Shown here piece after piece: positions 15,723 through 20,918 of a stretch of DNA of 64,000 nucleotides (positions are counted from its first letter, which is position 1; the number at the start of each line of letters is the position of its first letter). The translations under genes and the position numbers were made by a program. Under the pieces are notes generated by a model. The model did no database searches. It was not told where the DNA came from and saw nothing but the letters and a program-made list of their open reading frames with translations. The stretch is from contig NZ_CP136187.1 in the NCBI RefSeq assembly GCF_033193315.1, positions 3,913,501 through 3,977,500 on the forward strand. Direction: 5' to 3'. This DNA is from Agathobaculum sp. NTUH-O15-33. Its GTDB lineage: Bacteria; Bacillota; Clostridia; Oscillospirales; Butyricicoccaceae.

Positions 15723-16704
15723 GAGGATGTCGAAAAATGAGTTTTTCGACATCCTTCGATCGAAACAAAGCCCCATTTCGATCGAGAATTCCGGCTCTGA
15801 CGCGCGCCCTTTGGGCACACTTCGCCGCCGGTTTGTTCAGCCCATAGGCCTCTATCCATTTTCCGCCGCCGTGCGGCGATTAAATGAGAGCAAACCGAGT
15901 TACATGCTCCCGGTTTTTGGTCAAATTGAAGCAAAGCTTCAATTTTCAATTAGTGCTTTAGCGGTGGCGTATTTGCAGAGCAAATACGGTAAGAACCGCC
16001 CGCAATGCGGGTGGGATTCAAGTTTAAACAAAAAAGGACTTCCAAACTGATAAAATGGTGAGTGTTCAAGCCACCAAAGAAACAGAAAGGAAGACCTTTA
16101 TGGCAAACAGTTTAGCACATACAAAATGGGTATGCAAGTATCACATCGTATTCACACCGAAATATCGAAGGAAAATAATCTATAAGCAGCTGCGAAAAGA
16201 TATACAGCAAATTATAAAGGATTTGTGCAAGTGGAAGGGTGTGGAAATCATCGAAGGGCATATGATGCCTGACCATATTCATTTACTCGTAAGCGTGCCG
16301 CCGAAATACAGTATCTCGCAGTTTATGGGATATTTAAAAGGGAAAAGTGCGATGATGATATTCGAGCGGCATGGGAATTTAAAATATAAATTCGGCAGTC
16401 GTAATTTCTGGGCGACTGGATATTATGTGAGCACGGTAGGAATCAATACGGCCACGATTCAAAAATATATCAGGGAGCAAGATAAGCAGGATCAAATCGA
16501 AGATAGCTTAAGTAAGAAAGAATATGTTGACCCTTTCAAGGGTAGTAAGTAGTCTTACCATCAGGGCTTGAACGAAGTGAAAGCCAGCGTCTTTTAGGCG
16601 CTGGCTTTTTTTTATGCCCTTATAGGGCTTGTTCATGCCACCCCGCTTTGGGGTGGTCATGACTTTATTGCGCGCTGCGGCGCGAGGACTTTTTCGACAA
16701 GCTG
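15723..16704. mobile_element. Copy C: palindromic element carrying an IS200-type transposase, between duplicated terminators
   Basis: 982 bp. Its right end inverted reads CAGCTTGTCGAAAAAG and its left end reads GAGGATGTCGAAAAAT, matching the terminal repeats of copy B. Next to the left end is a hairpin GATGTCGAAAAA/TTTTTCGACATC, then the same modules as copies A and B in inverse order (TTTCGATCGA stem, GAATTCCGGC, CGCGCGCCCTTTGGGCACAC, ATGCTCCCGGTTTTT). Extra hairpins (TTGAAGC/GCTTCAA, GTATTTGC/GCAAATAC, ACCCCGCTTTGGGGT) flank tnpA. Either the IS inserted into a copy, or this is a larger autonomous version of the element. Confidence 0.7.
16100..16552 (+). CDS. tnpA: IS200/IS605-family transposase TnpA
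   Basis: 150 aa from ATG 16100 (MANSLAHTKWVCKYHIVFTP), the usual IS200 length, with AGAAAGGAAG upstream. It is a Y1 HUH single-strand transposase: the HUH motif is DHIHLLVSVPP (about residues 63-73) and the C-terminal helix with the candidate nucleophile Tyr is KYIREQDKQDQIE. No tnpB is present. It appears intact and potentially active. A hairpin GCCAGCG/CGCTGGC followed by Ts lies 30 bp downstream (about 16581-16611), in the expected right-end region. Confidence 0.92.
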   Translation: MANSLAHTKWVCKYHIVFTPKYRRKIIYKQLRKDIQQIIKDLCKWKGVEIIEGHMMPDHIHLLVSVPPKYSISQFMGYLKGKSAMMIFERHGNLKYKFGSRNFWATGYYVSTVGINTATIQKYIREQDKQDQIEDSLSKKEYVDPFKGSK

Positions 16705-18011: not shown

Positions 18012-19169
18012 TTATTGATAGCTTTCTCTTAGGATATCGATGATATCCTCTCGGGAAAGCGGCGCGGGATCAAGGCGGAACAGGCCGCCCATGGTATCGC
18101 GCGCGTTGTCGGCGATCTTGCCGAAATCCTCCGGCACGATGCCGTAGCCCGACATACGCAGATGGGCCACTTCGCAGTTTTTCATCAGATCGCCCAAAGC
18201 GTCGATAAAATGCTGCGGCTCGGACGCGTCCGTTTTGCCGAGCGCGCGTGCGAGCGCGACGAGCTTGTCGCCGCTGGACTGGAAGAAATGCTTCCAGTAA
18301 GCCTTGGAAATCACGATAAGGCCCGCGCCATGCGGCAATTCTGGATGAAACGCGGAAAGCGCGTGCTCAATCGCATGCTCGCCCGTGCAGGAAGAGAGCG
18401 ATTCAACAAAACCCGCCAGCGTGTTGGCCAGCGCCACGTTGCCGCGCGCTGGCTTATCGCCTCCGTCATGCACGGCGGTGGGCAGCGAAGCGCCGATCAG
18501 CTCCACCGCGCGCAGAGAAAACATTTCGCTGATGGGGTTGGCGCAGGTGGCGATATAGCCCTCGCATGCGTGGAACAGCGCGTCAAAGCCCTGATAGGCG
18601 GTCAGGTGTGGGGGCACCGTCATCATAAAGTCGGGATCTACGATCGAAAGGAACGGGAAGGTCTTATCCGTTCCGCCGCCGATCTTCTGTTCGCCGTTGG
18701 AAATGACGGTGAACGGGTCGGCTTCCGTGCCTGTGCCGGCGGTCGTCGTCACGGCGATTACGGGCAGGCCGTCGTTCTTGATTTTTTGGCCCTTGCCGGT
18801 GCCGCCCACGATATAATCCCACCAATCGCCCTCGTTGGTGGCCATGATGGAAACGGCTTTTGCCGTATCGATCGAGGAACCGCCGCCCAGACCGACGATG
18901 AAGGAGCAGTTTTCCTCGCGGCAGAGCTTGGCGCATTCGCGCACGCCCTCAATCGTGGGGTTGGGCTGCACCTTATTATAGACCAGTGTATCGTGTCCGC
19001 CCTCTCGCAGCGCTTCGGCCACCTTGCCGACATAGCCAAGGCGGGTGGTGGAAGTTCCGCCCGTAATAATCAGGCCTTTGCCTTCCGGCAGCTTGGCGCG
19101 CGAAAGCTTTTTCACCGAGCCGGGGCCGAAGAAGATACGGGTGGGCATATAAAATTTAAAGTTATCCAT
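18012..19169 (-). CDS. Iron-containing alcohol dehydrogenase (first of three)
   Basis: 385 aa, group III Fe-ADH. The Rossmann-like N-terminal domain has VGLGGGSSIDTAKAV (NAD(P) binding) and TTTAGTGTEADPFTVI. Metal ligands are seen in GFDALFHACEGY (Asp, His) and in GEHAIEHALSAFHPELPHG (two His). The substrate cannot be told from sequence; butanol, lactaldehyde or 1,3-propanediol dehydrogenases share this fold. AGGAGG precedes the ATG at 19169. It shares little sequence with the two other Fe-ADHs here (43400-44581, 57355-58545). Confidence 0.93.
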   Translation of the reverse strand: MDNFKFYMPTRIFFGPGSVKKLSRAKLPEGKGLIITGGTSTTRLGYVGKVAEALREGGHDTLVYNKVQPNPTIEGVRECAKLCREENCSFIVGLGGGSSIDTAKAVSIMATNEGDWWDYIVGGTGKGQKIKNDGLPVIAVTTTAGTGTEADPFTVISNGEQKIGGGTDKTFPFLSIVDPDFMMTVPPHLTAYQGFDALFHACEGYIATCANPISEMFSLRAVELIGASLPTAVHDGGDKPARGNVALANTLAGFVESLSSCTGEHAIEHALSAFHPELPHGAGLIVISKAYWKHFFQSSGDKLVALARALGKTDASEPQHFIDALGDLMKNCEVAHLRMSGYGIVPEDFGKIADNARDTMGGLFRLDPAPLSREDIIDILRESYQ

Positions 19170-19320
19170 TTTACACCTCCTGTAAAAAAATGGGGGGTCT
19201 CCAAAAAACCCCTCAACATACCTATTATATCACTATGAAACAGAAATGAAAATAGGTAAATGGATGAATATTGGAATTGTTTTTTGGTACTTTTTAAGGC
19301 GAAAAAAGCGGGAAAAGCGC

Positions 19321-19349
19321 TTGACGAAGGTGTTTTCCGGTGTTATTAT
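19321..19349 (+). promoter_or_regulatory. Promoter of the structured RNA candidate
   Basis: TTGACG (19321-19326), 17-bp spacer, TATTAT (19344-19349), predicting transcription from about 19356 into a gene-free stretch of over 700 bp. Confidence 0.7.
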
Positions 19350-19355
19350 TATGTC

Positions 19356-20118
19356 ACAACAAAGGAAGGGCAAACACCATACCAAAGCAGGGGCTTTGGC
19401 AAAGGCGAAACCCAAGAAAAAACTTTGTACCGCTTAATGAGAAAGGGGTGAGTCCAATGGTAACGGAGTTTGAACCCTATCAGTTTGCGGGACTCGCCGC
19501 GACGCTGTAACCGAAAGAGTAAAGGTGATTAGCAATAAGCGAGTTCCAGAAAAAATCGGATGTGCAAAAAAGCCTGCGTGTTTTCTAGGATTCAAGTAAA
19601 AGCGGCATCCTTCGAGGAAGTTATCCTCATCTCGTGAAGTTTCCATTCCGCAGTCATACACGAACAAAAAGAAAGCCACTATTGCAGGTCACGCACAGAA
19701 ATCCGAAAATTTCAGCAAAAGCAATTTGAGTGCTTGCGTCGGCGAAAACATCTTAACGATATACCTGTAAAGCCAAAAATAGTGCTCGCCCAATGGCCGA
19801 TGGGCATACTGATGAGTATGGCGAAGCATAAGCGGATCAGAGAAGAACGCAGCGACGATATCAACGCTTCCTGAAAGTGATCCGGGCAATACGGGAACAG
19901 AATCGACCCGCCGAGAAGTAAACGCAGCAAAAAATTGATATAGAATCCCCCGTGCGGATACAAGCGATGTCAGTCAATCGTTTCCGTCAACAAACGAACC
20001 GCAGTCGGGCGATTCCCGTAAACGATAGGTGATAAAAATTCCATCCAACCAAAAAGAAAAGGAACCAAATGGAAAATCAGAATACTTAAGGGCCCTGCCG
20101 GATGGTGGGGCCTTTAAT
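19356..20118 (+). ncRNA. Large structured noncoding RNA candidate (about 760 nt)
   Basis: No convincing gene is present on either strand from 19190 to 20165, yet the stretch has a promoter, many helices and a terminator. Helices seen: CCAAAGC (19382-19388) with GCTTTGG (19393-19399); GGTGAGTCC (19447-19455) with GGACTCGCC (19490-19498); GCCCA (19788-19792) with TGGGC (19801-19805); CATACT (19805-19810) with AGTATG (19815-19820); CGGATCA (19833-19839) with TGATCCG (19878-19884); CCCGTGCGG (19949-19957) with CCGCA-GT-CGGG (19999-20009), enclosing AAGCGAT (19962-19968) with ATCGTTT (19977-19983). Loops are A-rich and base use is lower in GC than the flanks. I could not assign it to a known family; size suggests comparison with OLE, GOLLD and ROOL. 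Confidence 0.6.
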
Positions 20119-20120
20119 TT
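20086..20120 (+). terminator. Terminator of the RNA candidate
   Basis: TTAAGGGCCC (20086-20095) pairs with GGGCCTTTAA (20108-20117), 10 bp with one G-U, followed by TTTTG. Confidence 0.8.
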
Positions 20121-20134
20121 TGTGTTTAAAGCTA

Positions 20135-20162
20135 AAAAAGGGAGCCGTTAGGCTCCCTTTTT
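20135..20162. terminator. Bidirectional terminator between RNA candidate and SLH gene
   Basis: AAAAAGGGAGCC / GGCTCCCTTTTT with a GTTA loop. It lies 4 bp beyond the stop of the convergent SLH gene and serves it on the minus strand. Confidence 0.85.
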
Positions 20163-20165
20163 GAT

Positions 20166-20918
20166 TTACTTGGTAATCAGTTTCAGGCCTTCGTAGGCTT
20201 TGGCCACAAAGCGCTGTTCCATATTAAACGCGATCTGCGCCATTTCCGCGCGGGTCACGTTGCCCTTGGGGTTAAAGGAGCCGTTCGCGTTGCCGCGCAG
20301 CAGATCGTTCGCAATGCAGAAGCGCACGGGCTCTACCGCAAACTTGCTGATCGAAGCGGCGTCCGTAAACTCTTCTATCGCCATGCCGGAGGATGCGTCC
20401 GCCGAGGTCGGCACCAGATACTGATAGTAACGCTCTAACACAGCGGCCAGCTCTTCCCGGGTAATATTTGCGTTCGGGTTGATCTTGTGCTGCTCGTCGC
20501 CCTTCATAATATCGGAATAATAGCAGAAGGAAACGCCCTGCAGGAAGGGTGCGCTGATCTCATTGTAATCCGCCATTTCTTTCAGCGCGTTGCCCGCGTT
20601 CTCCACGTCGCTCACGTTGCGCAGTTTCGCGTCGCGGAAGATTGTTTCCGCAACTTCCTCACGGGTAATGGCAACCTCGGGTTCAAAGTTGACCTTGCCG
20701 CCCATAGCGGCGGACAGATCAATCAGATTGTATTTCAGCACATAGTCTACCGCCGCCTTGTACCATGCGGTATCAGCCACATCATCCGGAACGCCGGAAG
20801 AAACGGGCGCGGTTTGGTTGGGCGCAATGTCCATCTGGTCATCGGCGGCAAGCGCGGTGGCGCCCATGGACAATGCCATGACAGCGGACAGGCCGGCGGC
20901 AAGAATTCTTTTTTTCAT
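20166..20918 (-). CDS. Secreted S-layer homology (SLH) domain protein
   Basis: 250 aa. Signal peptide MKKRILAAGLSAVMALSMGATALAA, with a likely cut after ALA. The rest is three SLH-like repeats with typical ITREEVAETIFRDAK, ITREELAAVLERYYQ and VTRAEMAQIAFNMEQ motifs, about 60 residues apart (starting near 50, 115 and 185). SLH repeats bind pyruvylated cell-wall polymer. There is no additional enzymatic domain, so it is a pure wall-binding protein. AAGGAG precedes the ATG. A TATAAT at 20974-20979 on the minus strand is a possible -10. Confidence 0.9.
   Translation of the reverse strand: MKKRILAAGLSAVMALSMGATALAADDQMDIAPNQTAPVSSGVPDDVADTAWYKAAVDYVLKYNLIDLSAAMGGKVNFEPEVAITREEVAETIFRDAKLRNVSDVENAGNALKEMADYNEISAPFLQGVSFCYYSDIMKGDEQHKINPNANITREELAAVLERYYQYLVPTSADASSGMAIEEFTDAASISKFAVEPVRFCIANDLLRGNANGSFNPKGNVTRAEMAQIAFNMEQRFVAKAYEGLKLITK

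Follow-up and report, generated by a model that had tools for sequence, protein, structure and literature searches.

A large structured RNA gene of Agathobaculum with an extended Shine-Dalgarno site and a micro-ORF in its closing helix: a candidate ribosome-engaging regulator

Within a 64,000-nucleotide stretch of Agathobaculum sp. NTUH-O15-33 DNA, referred to below as the window, the interval between an alcohol dehydrogenase gene and a gene for an SLH-domain protein almost certainly carries the gene of a structured RNA. In our best explanation, for which we claim close to, though short of, an even chance as a whole, the gene is single-copy and vertically inherited, its product belongs to a newly recognised RNA family defined by an extended Shine-Dalgarno hairpin in the 5' part, and the RNA would be a dual-function, ribosome-engaging regulator, acting in trans, whose fold is coupled to initiation at a micro-ORF. 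Taken singly, and as read from the sequence, translation of the micro-ORF is probable, while a ribosome-coupled regulatory function can be proposed tentatively. The RNA is new to Rfam 15.

An earlier note on this DNA had described a gene-free stretch running from a promoter (TTGACG-17-TATTAT) to a T-tailed hairpin taken as a terminator, and both signals are present (Table 1). The promoter could be aligned in those genus sequences that were long enough to reach it, and a terminator was recognised by eye at the equivalent place in some relatives only (L006, L018, L019, L023). The stretch is not gene-free, as it holds a conserved 17-codon ORF, and the idea of a purely non-coding RNA is not supported. 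Upstream lies a gene for an iron-containing alcohol dehydrogenase (Fe-ADH; 18012-19169, minus strand), with an asparaginase gene beyond it, and downstream a gene for the SLH-domain protein (20166-20918, minus strand), which is convergent, as the earlier note had said, and situated beyond the RNA's terminator. A cis-regulatory leader was rejected, the terminator being followed by the convergent SLH gene and a same-strand downstream gene being absent. A whole-genome DNA search found a single copy in the window's genome. A gene for an IS200-like transposase (Y1_Tnp) is present at window positions 16055-16552, approximately 3 kb upstream.

Table 1. Features of the RNA gene, in window coordinates.
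Feature	Position	Strand	Description	Basis
Promoter	19321-19349	+	−35 TTGACG (19321-19326), 17-nt spacer, −10 TATTAT (19344-19349) preceded by TGT	sequence
Inferred transcript	19356-20121	+	approximately 765 nt, predicted start to terminator end	promoter and terminator positions; fold z −8.08
5' anti-Shine-Dalgarno element	19368-19378	+	GGGC-AAA-CACC	can pair with 19447-19455
Hairpin with strongest covariation	19382-19399	+	CCAAAGC/GCTTTGG	alignment pairs 40-49 (E 0.0006) and 39-50 (E 0.04)
Extended Shine-Dalgarno site	19441-19455	+	GAAAGGGGTGAGTCC, complementary to the 16S 3' end apart from a single bulged G	−21.7 kcal/mol
Hairpin 1	19447-19455 / 19490-19498	+	encloses the start codon	31 sequences, several families
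Micro-ORF	19457-19510	+	17 codons, ATG at 19457, MVTEFEPYQFAGLAATL then stop	start and stop conservation in the genus
Closing helix P1	19483-19503 / 20004-20023	+	long-range, first strand inside the micro-ORF	19 pairs, on average paired in 20.6 of 21 relatives
Long helix of the genus consensus	19572-19584 / 19669-19682	+		covarying alignment columns 278-377, E 0.045
Helix closing the conserved core domain	19734-19744 / 19909-19927	+		genus consensus and mapping
Most conserved core	19786-19824	+	twin GAUG-loop hairpins, GCC-GAUG-GGC and AUACU-GAUG-AGUAU, within a covarying stem	outer stem pair 516-555, E 0.004
CGGATCA/TGATCCG helix	19833-19839 / 19878-19884	+	helix of the earlier note	pair types across 21 species
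Intrinsic terminator	about 20088-20121	+	T-tailed hairpin	sequence

The segment 19355-20120 gave a predicted folding energy of −229.3 kcal/mol, as compared to −189.7 (sd 4.9) for 20 dinucleotide shuffles (z −8.08). The RNAalifold consensus of 21 Agathobaculum sequences contained 120 pairs, 32 of them with two-sided change(s); the underlying alignment (A2) held 21 of the 23 genus sequences with coordinates, the near-duplicate L011 and the truncated L012 being omitted. In a covariation test written in the manner of R-scape, with a tree-preserving null and 100 simulations, 5 of the 120 structure pairs reached E<0.05, and these were spread over four helices. A more stringent test of all pairs gave no pair with E below 1, yet the structure holds 5 of the best 9. 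These results bear out the earlier idea of a large structured RNA with many helices, as the fold beats its shuffles and there are conserved helices, some of them covarying. That idea would have failed had there been no conserved homologues or no significant covariation; homologues exist, and covariation is present.

Individual helices differ in their support. P1 shows two-sided changes in three pairs, with a best covariation E of 0.13, and thus has none at 0.05. The long helix of the genus consensus is weak in the window's own sequence, where 8 of 11 pairs form. CGGATCA/TGATCCG, which the earlier note had singled out, proved to be conserved with two-sided changes: among the 21 species one of its pairs occurs as AU in 10, GC in 6, GU in 2 and UA in 1, and another as CG in 11 and UA in 7, the best pair having an E of 0.11 in the R-scape-like test. 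A second helix proposed there, of 9 bp with a GT bulge (19949-20009), is present in the window but not conserved; four of its nine pairs form in just 2, 3, 3 and 7 of the 21 relatives, and it is incompatible with the conserved P1. An exact 24-mer of the core was found in four Butyricicoccus contigs and one Agathobaculum contig. A viral origin was rejected, this 24-mer being in 0 viral contigs, and so was a viral link through a loose ribosome-site pattern, the 53 stretches matching it being close to chance by an estimate with an assumed collection size and no control.

DNA matches to the RNA occurred in 31 of 87 genomes of the taxonomic family: 24 of 25 in Agathobaculum (own genome counted; some partial), all 6 in Butyricicoccus (genus g2, both genera being identified by the contigs with the core 24-mer) and 1 of 2 in genus g7. 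Within the genus, the genome lacking a match (G004) is a draft assembly from the window's own species. The Butyricicoccus form is compact (345-357 nt in four loci with the terminator called at the right place) and, by eye, divergent from the same alcohol dehydrogenase gene. A covariance model of this compact form matched 22 of 394 genomes of the order, all of the home family, and added genera g3 and g4. In several other Agathobaculum species (L003-L005, L007-L009) the similarity among them runs past the end of the window's RNA, and inspection by eye revealed no terminator in the 420 nt next to the core; these RNAs may be approximately 1 kb or longer.

A ribosome-site pattern with a variable spacer reached further, giving 58 matches in 51 of the 394 genomes and in many families, with 1 match for the reversed control; part of the matches simply mark the ordinary ribosome site of a longer gene, 6 sites being assigned to such genes. 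The matches were sorted into standalone RNAs and mRNA leaders. Most of the standalone RNAs keep hairpin 1, in which the site pairs with a segment approximately 30-42 nt downstream within the ORF, and no more than 10 of 200 shuffles were as good in 20 of 28 such RNAs (main copies), as compared to 0 of 14 leaders; for the remaining 8 of 28, 11 to 122 of 200 shuffles were as good. A model of hairpin 1, R2, gave matches in family f23 (20 of 120 genomes) and across the class (15 of 291 genomes), the weaker matches in both including ordinary ribosome sites and chance. No fewer than three further families of the order contain relatives, of approximately 0.35-1.1 kb, that share this module. Two loci of family f67, outside the order (L176, L181), are candidate distant relatives with, by eye, a compensatory GUGAGACC/GGUCUUGC in hairpin 1.

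The extended site was also seen in other settings. In two Agathobaculum genomes (L133, at G000:C1:3042180, and L130, in G001), the motif AAAG..GGGTGAGTCCnATGG stands ahead of the start of a longer, ordinary protein gene. In other families of the order (L152-L155, L158, L160-L162, L164, L169, L129), the same extended site with a mini-ORF of 2-35 codons, such as MG-stop, MA-stop or MGS-stop, is located upstream of genes, most of whose products start, by eye, with hydrophobic, signal-peptide-like residues. Lacking hairpin 1, these may be a separate leader element. A broad regulon of mRNA leaders sharing the motif was rejected: each of 24 genomes contained 0-3 exact copies of GTGAGTCCNATGG, which is too rare for a large regulon at the exact-match level, and the leaders are without hairpin 1 (0 of 14).

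That no neighbour gives a clue, as the earlier note put it, holds in the window's genome and fails elsewhere, since relatives of two other families adjoin 6S RNA. When up to about 1.5 kb per side was searched at 18 loci of families f23 and f26, 6S RNA was found 518-1092 nt upstream on the opposite strand (head-to-head) at 15 (L067, L068, L070, L124, L126, L175, L179, L190, L191, L195, L196, L198, L200, L205, L206) and was missing at L128, L177 and L189. An ORF of 99-111 residues lies between 6S and the RNA; the one tested against Pfam is DUF1292, and the others are similar by eye. The window genome's own 6S is at C1:2916259-2916450 (69.1 bits), approximately 1 Mb off. Pairing of the motif with the neighbouring 6S RNA was considered and dropped, as it was no better than shuffles in 15 of 15 cases. 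Within the home family, an asparaginase gene is nearby in g4, g5 and g7, and D-Ala-D-Ala ligase adjoins three g3 loci (all by eye; one piece of the latter tested).

Scanning the window with the 4227 families of Rfam 15 at gathering gave no match to the RNA body, nor did a scan of 18800-20600 to E 10, in which the only matches were weak ones to unrelated small RNAs, nearly all over terminators. Relatives scanned with E up to 5, with E up to 1 or at gathering likewise gave no family matching the RNA body; 6S and tRNA were found in these scans, so the procedure works. OLE, GOLLD, ROOL and HEARO, the classes against which the earlier note had asked for a search, were presumably among the families scanned, and none of them matched: OLE gave nothing at gathering in the window and nothing to E 10 in 18800-20600, and GOLLD, ROOL and HEARO nothing in the window, in 18800-20600 or in the relatives. 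The 6S model (RF00013) did not match at this RNA. Of the earlier suggestion, a known ornate class or a new one, the large structured RNA with no Rfam match stands and membership in an existing ornate class does not. RNAIII of Staphylococcus aureus is a dual-function regulatory RNA, long and structured, with a small ORF; in the RNA described here, by comparison, the 17-codon ORF is built into the closing helix, and the family is spread over several families of a Clostridia order.

In the literature searched, as far as the sources were available, no description of this RNA was found, and an anonymous entry among the 3161 candidates in the supplement of Fremin and Bhatt 2021 (PMC8040213) is possible. 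Like OLE, GOLLD and ROOL, the RNA has many helices, a comparable size range and a function that is mostly open (PMC12286853). Unlike them, it has no Rfam match, carries an extended Shine-Dalgarno site with a micro-ORF, and has a core 24-mer that is in 0 viral contigs. The odc1-type uORF RNA motif also combines a structured RNA with a conserved short ORF and a pairing that may hide the ribosome site; it is, according to PMC8632094, the leader of a downstream gene, whereas this RNA stands alone.

When pairing with the 16S 3' end was computed for 22-nt windows every 2 nt on both strands of the whole 64 kb, the extended Shine-Dalgarno site ranked first among 63,978 (−21.7 kcal/mol; runner-up −20.4), and 0 of the 44 long ORFs of the window had a stronger one, the best reaching −15.7 kcal/mol. 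The 16S 3' tail used, GGAUCACCUCCUUUCU, is exact in the window's genome, at the one place found. Pairing ranged from −15.2 to −21.7 kcal/mol in 28 relatives, themselves chosen by the motif, with RNA ends for this and for the motif and folding counts below set automatically (346-1308 nt; some rough). The bulged G is retained even though pairing with 16S would be stronger without it, and the site may therefore be under constraints besides 16S. A start codon follows in 23 of 23 genus sequences with no earlier in-frame stop, and the stop position is shared by 22 (TAA 18, TGA 4), L024 having lost it. For the loop codons pN/pS was 0.57 in frame as compared to 0.77 and 0.81 in the other frames, a modest difference which is suggestive only. 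As regards a dual-function RNA, a conserved micro-ORF start and an extreme ribosome site accompany the structured body at the level of sequence. Extended pairing of Shine-Dalgarno and anti-Shine-Dalgarno near a start codon is documented in S. aureus (PMC13009471), and a strong Shine-Dalgarno, even with no start codon, stabilises RNAs in bacteria lacking RNase E according to a review (PMC3997798); both make the ribosome part plausible.

Positions 19447-19455 of the site have three potential partners, namely the 16S tail, the ORF segment 19490-19498 (forming hairpin 1) and the 5' element 19368-19378, and the ORF segment in turn belongs to P1 as well. In an alignment (A5) of 31 of 38 listed hairpin sequences from several families, 92.1% of hairpin 1 cells were paired, as compared to 25-44% with one strand slid by 1-3 columns, and 7 cells had changes on both sides; its covariation score was matched by 1 of 500 shuffles and its number of pair types by 158 of 500. 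Eight pairs of the 5' element form in 19-21 of 21 relatives but are nearly invariant and so bring no covariation support. P1 wins in the full-length fold, where enforcing hairpin 1 costs 16.6 kcal/mol, opening the ribosome site 8.7 kcal/mol and opening the 35-nt footprint 14.3 kcal/mol. These opening costs are below the 21.7 kcal/mol from 16S pairing, so that 16S binding could pay for them. Hairpin 1 was populated to just 12% in the window's nascent 5' 220 nt; among the 28 RNAs, 19 had it at 50% or more when folded locally, and only 2 when folded at full length.

From the promoter and terminator signals, the conserved helices, the 16S-complementary site with its micro-ORF and the competing complementarities we infer the following course of events. 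30S subunits would attach to the extended site, bringing a ribosome onto the micro-ORF, and both 30S binding and translation would compete with closure of the RNA. Because P1 takes one of its strands from the 3' half of the ORF, a translating ribosome would hold the RNA open, and an idle ribosome would let P1 form, sealing the molecule. The RNA might thereby report or respond to initiation capacity, in trans.

A second explanation, unlikely in our judgement, is that of a stabilised structural RNA whose ribosome site acts like STAB-SD, a parked 30S subunit blocking a 5' exonuclease, while the body binds a protein or ligand and the peptide is incidental. Motif copies with no start codon behind them in relatives L175, L195 and L196 are consistent with this, as is the location of the most conserved core (19786-19824) far from the ORF. 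It would also agree with stabilisation by a strong Shine-Dalgarno with no start codon where RNase E is absent, and with STAB-SD of Bacilli the RNA shares strong Shine-Dalgarno complementarity and, in some relatives, the missing start codon (PMC3997798). However, the window has one site, lying approximately 85 nt downstream of the predicted 5' end, and the genus sequences have a start codon (23/23) and the same stop (22/23) behind it; here, in contrast to STAB-SD, a start codon and small ORF usually follow, and the site is embedded in a large structured RNA.

Repeated motifs suggest a further possibility. CsrB/RsmZ-type sponges repeat a short GGA motif within one RNA, and a CsrB-like sponge, in which repeated GUGA-N-UCC and NAUG-loop hairpins titrate an RNA-binding protein, seems to us quite improbable here. 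GUGA-N-UCC occurred 40 times in 23 of the 28 relatives (23,283 nt), as compared to approximately 1.4 expected, one copy per RNA being mostly due to selection; the reversed, complemented and reverse-complemented controls gave 0 and a version without the N gave 3. Further copies are found in g3, g5, f26 and some f23 RNAs, up to five in L175, and some lack a start codon. CC[ACG]AUGG occurred 53 times in the 28 RNAs, as compared to 4 for the reversed control, one per RNA again reflecting selection. N is mostly G, as expected of a sequence-specific binder. The RNA resembles CsrB/RsmZ in having a short motif repeated in some relatives. The motif is GUGA-N-UCC rather than GGA, though, the window's RNA holds a single copy, GUGAGUCC, rather than many, the repeats are lineage-specific, and a binding protein was not found. 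Other sites for the 16S tail below −13.5 kcal/mol numbered 39, a mild excess over the shuffle mean of 27.6 (maximum 34 in 20). In g3 (L145, L146, L148), tandem units resembling GAAAG-n-GGUGAGUCC-n-AUGGGC form arrays beside the main copy, and their ORFs stop, by eye, mostly after two or three codons and after seven in one copy.

6S RNA is a decoy of RNA polymerase. On an analogous reading, in which we place similarly little confidence, this RNA would be a ribosome-docking RNA that captures 30S subunits through approximately 14-15 bp with the 16S tail (one bulge being kept). Just as 6S titrates polymerase, it would titrate or sense ribosomes at initiation, and some lineages would carry as many as five additional docking motifs, along with mini-ORFs two or three codons long, next to 6S.

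Slightly more doubtful still is that the transcript is mainly an mRNA for the 17-aa peptide, whose structured 3' UTR is very long. The window's strongest ribosome site, the conserved frame and, by eye, a glutamate at codon 4 in many relatives would fit a peptide. Against it, both the frame and the sequence of the C-terminal half differ from family to family, whereas the hairpin is kept (by eye), and hundreds of nucleotides of conserved, partly covarying structure lie downstream of the ORF. A decayed protein gene, a neighbour's cis-acting leader or a mobile element is very improbable: decay could be read from the indels outside the ORF, which are of any length, and an IS200-like transposase lies approximately 3 kb away, but the neighbours, divergent or convergent here, differ from genus to genus although the RNA persists, helices covary, there is one copy in the genome, and nothing points to a decayed protein gene.

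If our preferred reading, a dual-function RNA engaging the ribosome, is true, these loci would constitute an uncatalogued RNA family of gut bacteria, present in Agathobaculum and Butyricicoccus as well as in further families of the order, whose large structured RNA incorporates a super-extended ribosome site and a micro-ORF in the helix that closes it. In two families most of the loci examined place the RNA next to 6S RNA, and this suggests a connection with the global control of growth. Whether bacteria use structured RNAs to sense or trap ribosomes at initiation could then be tested cleanly on this family.
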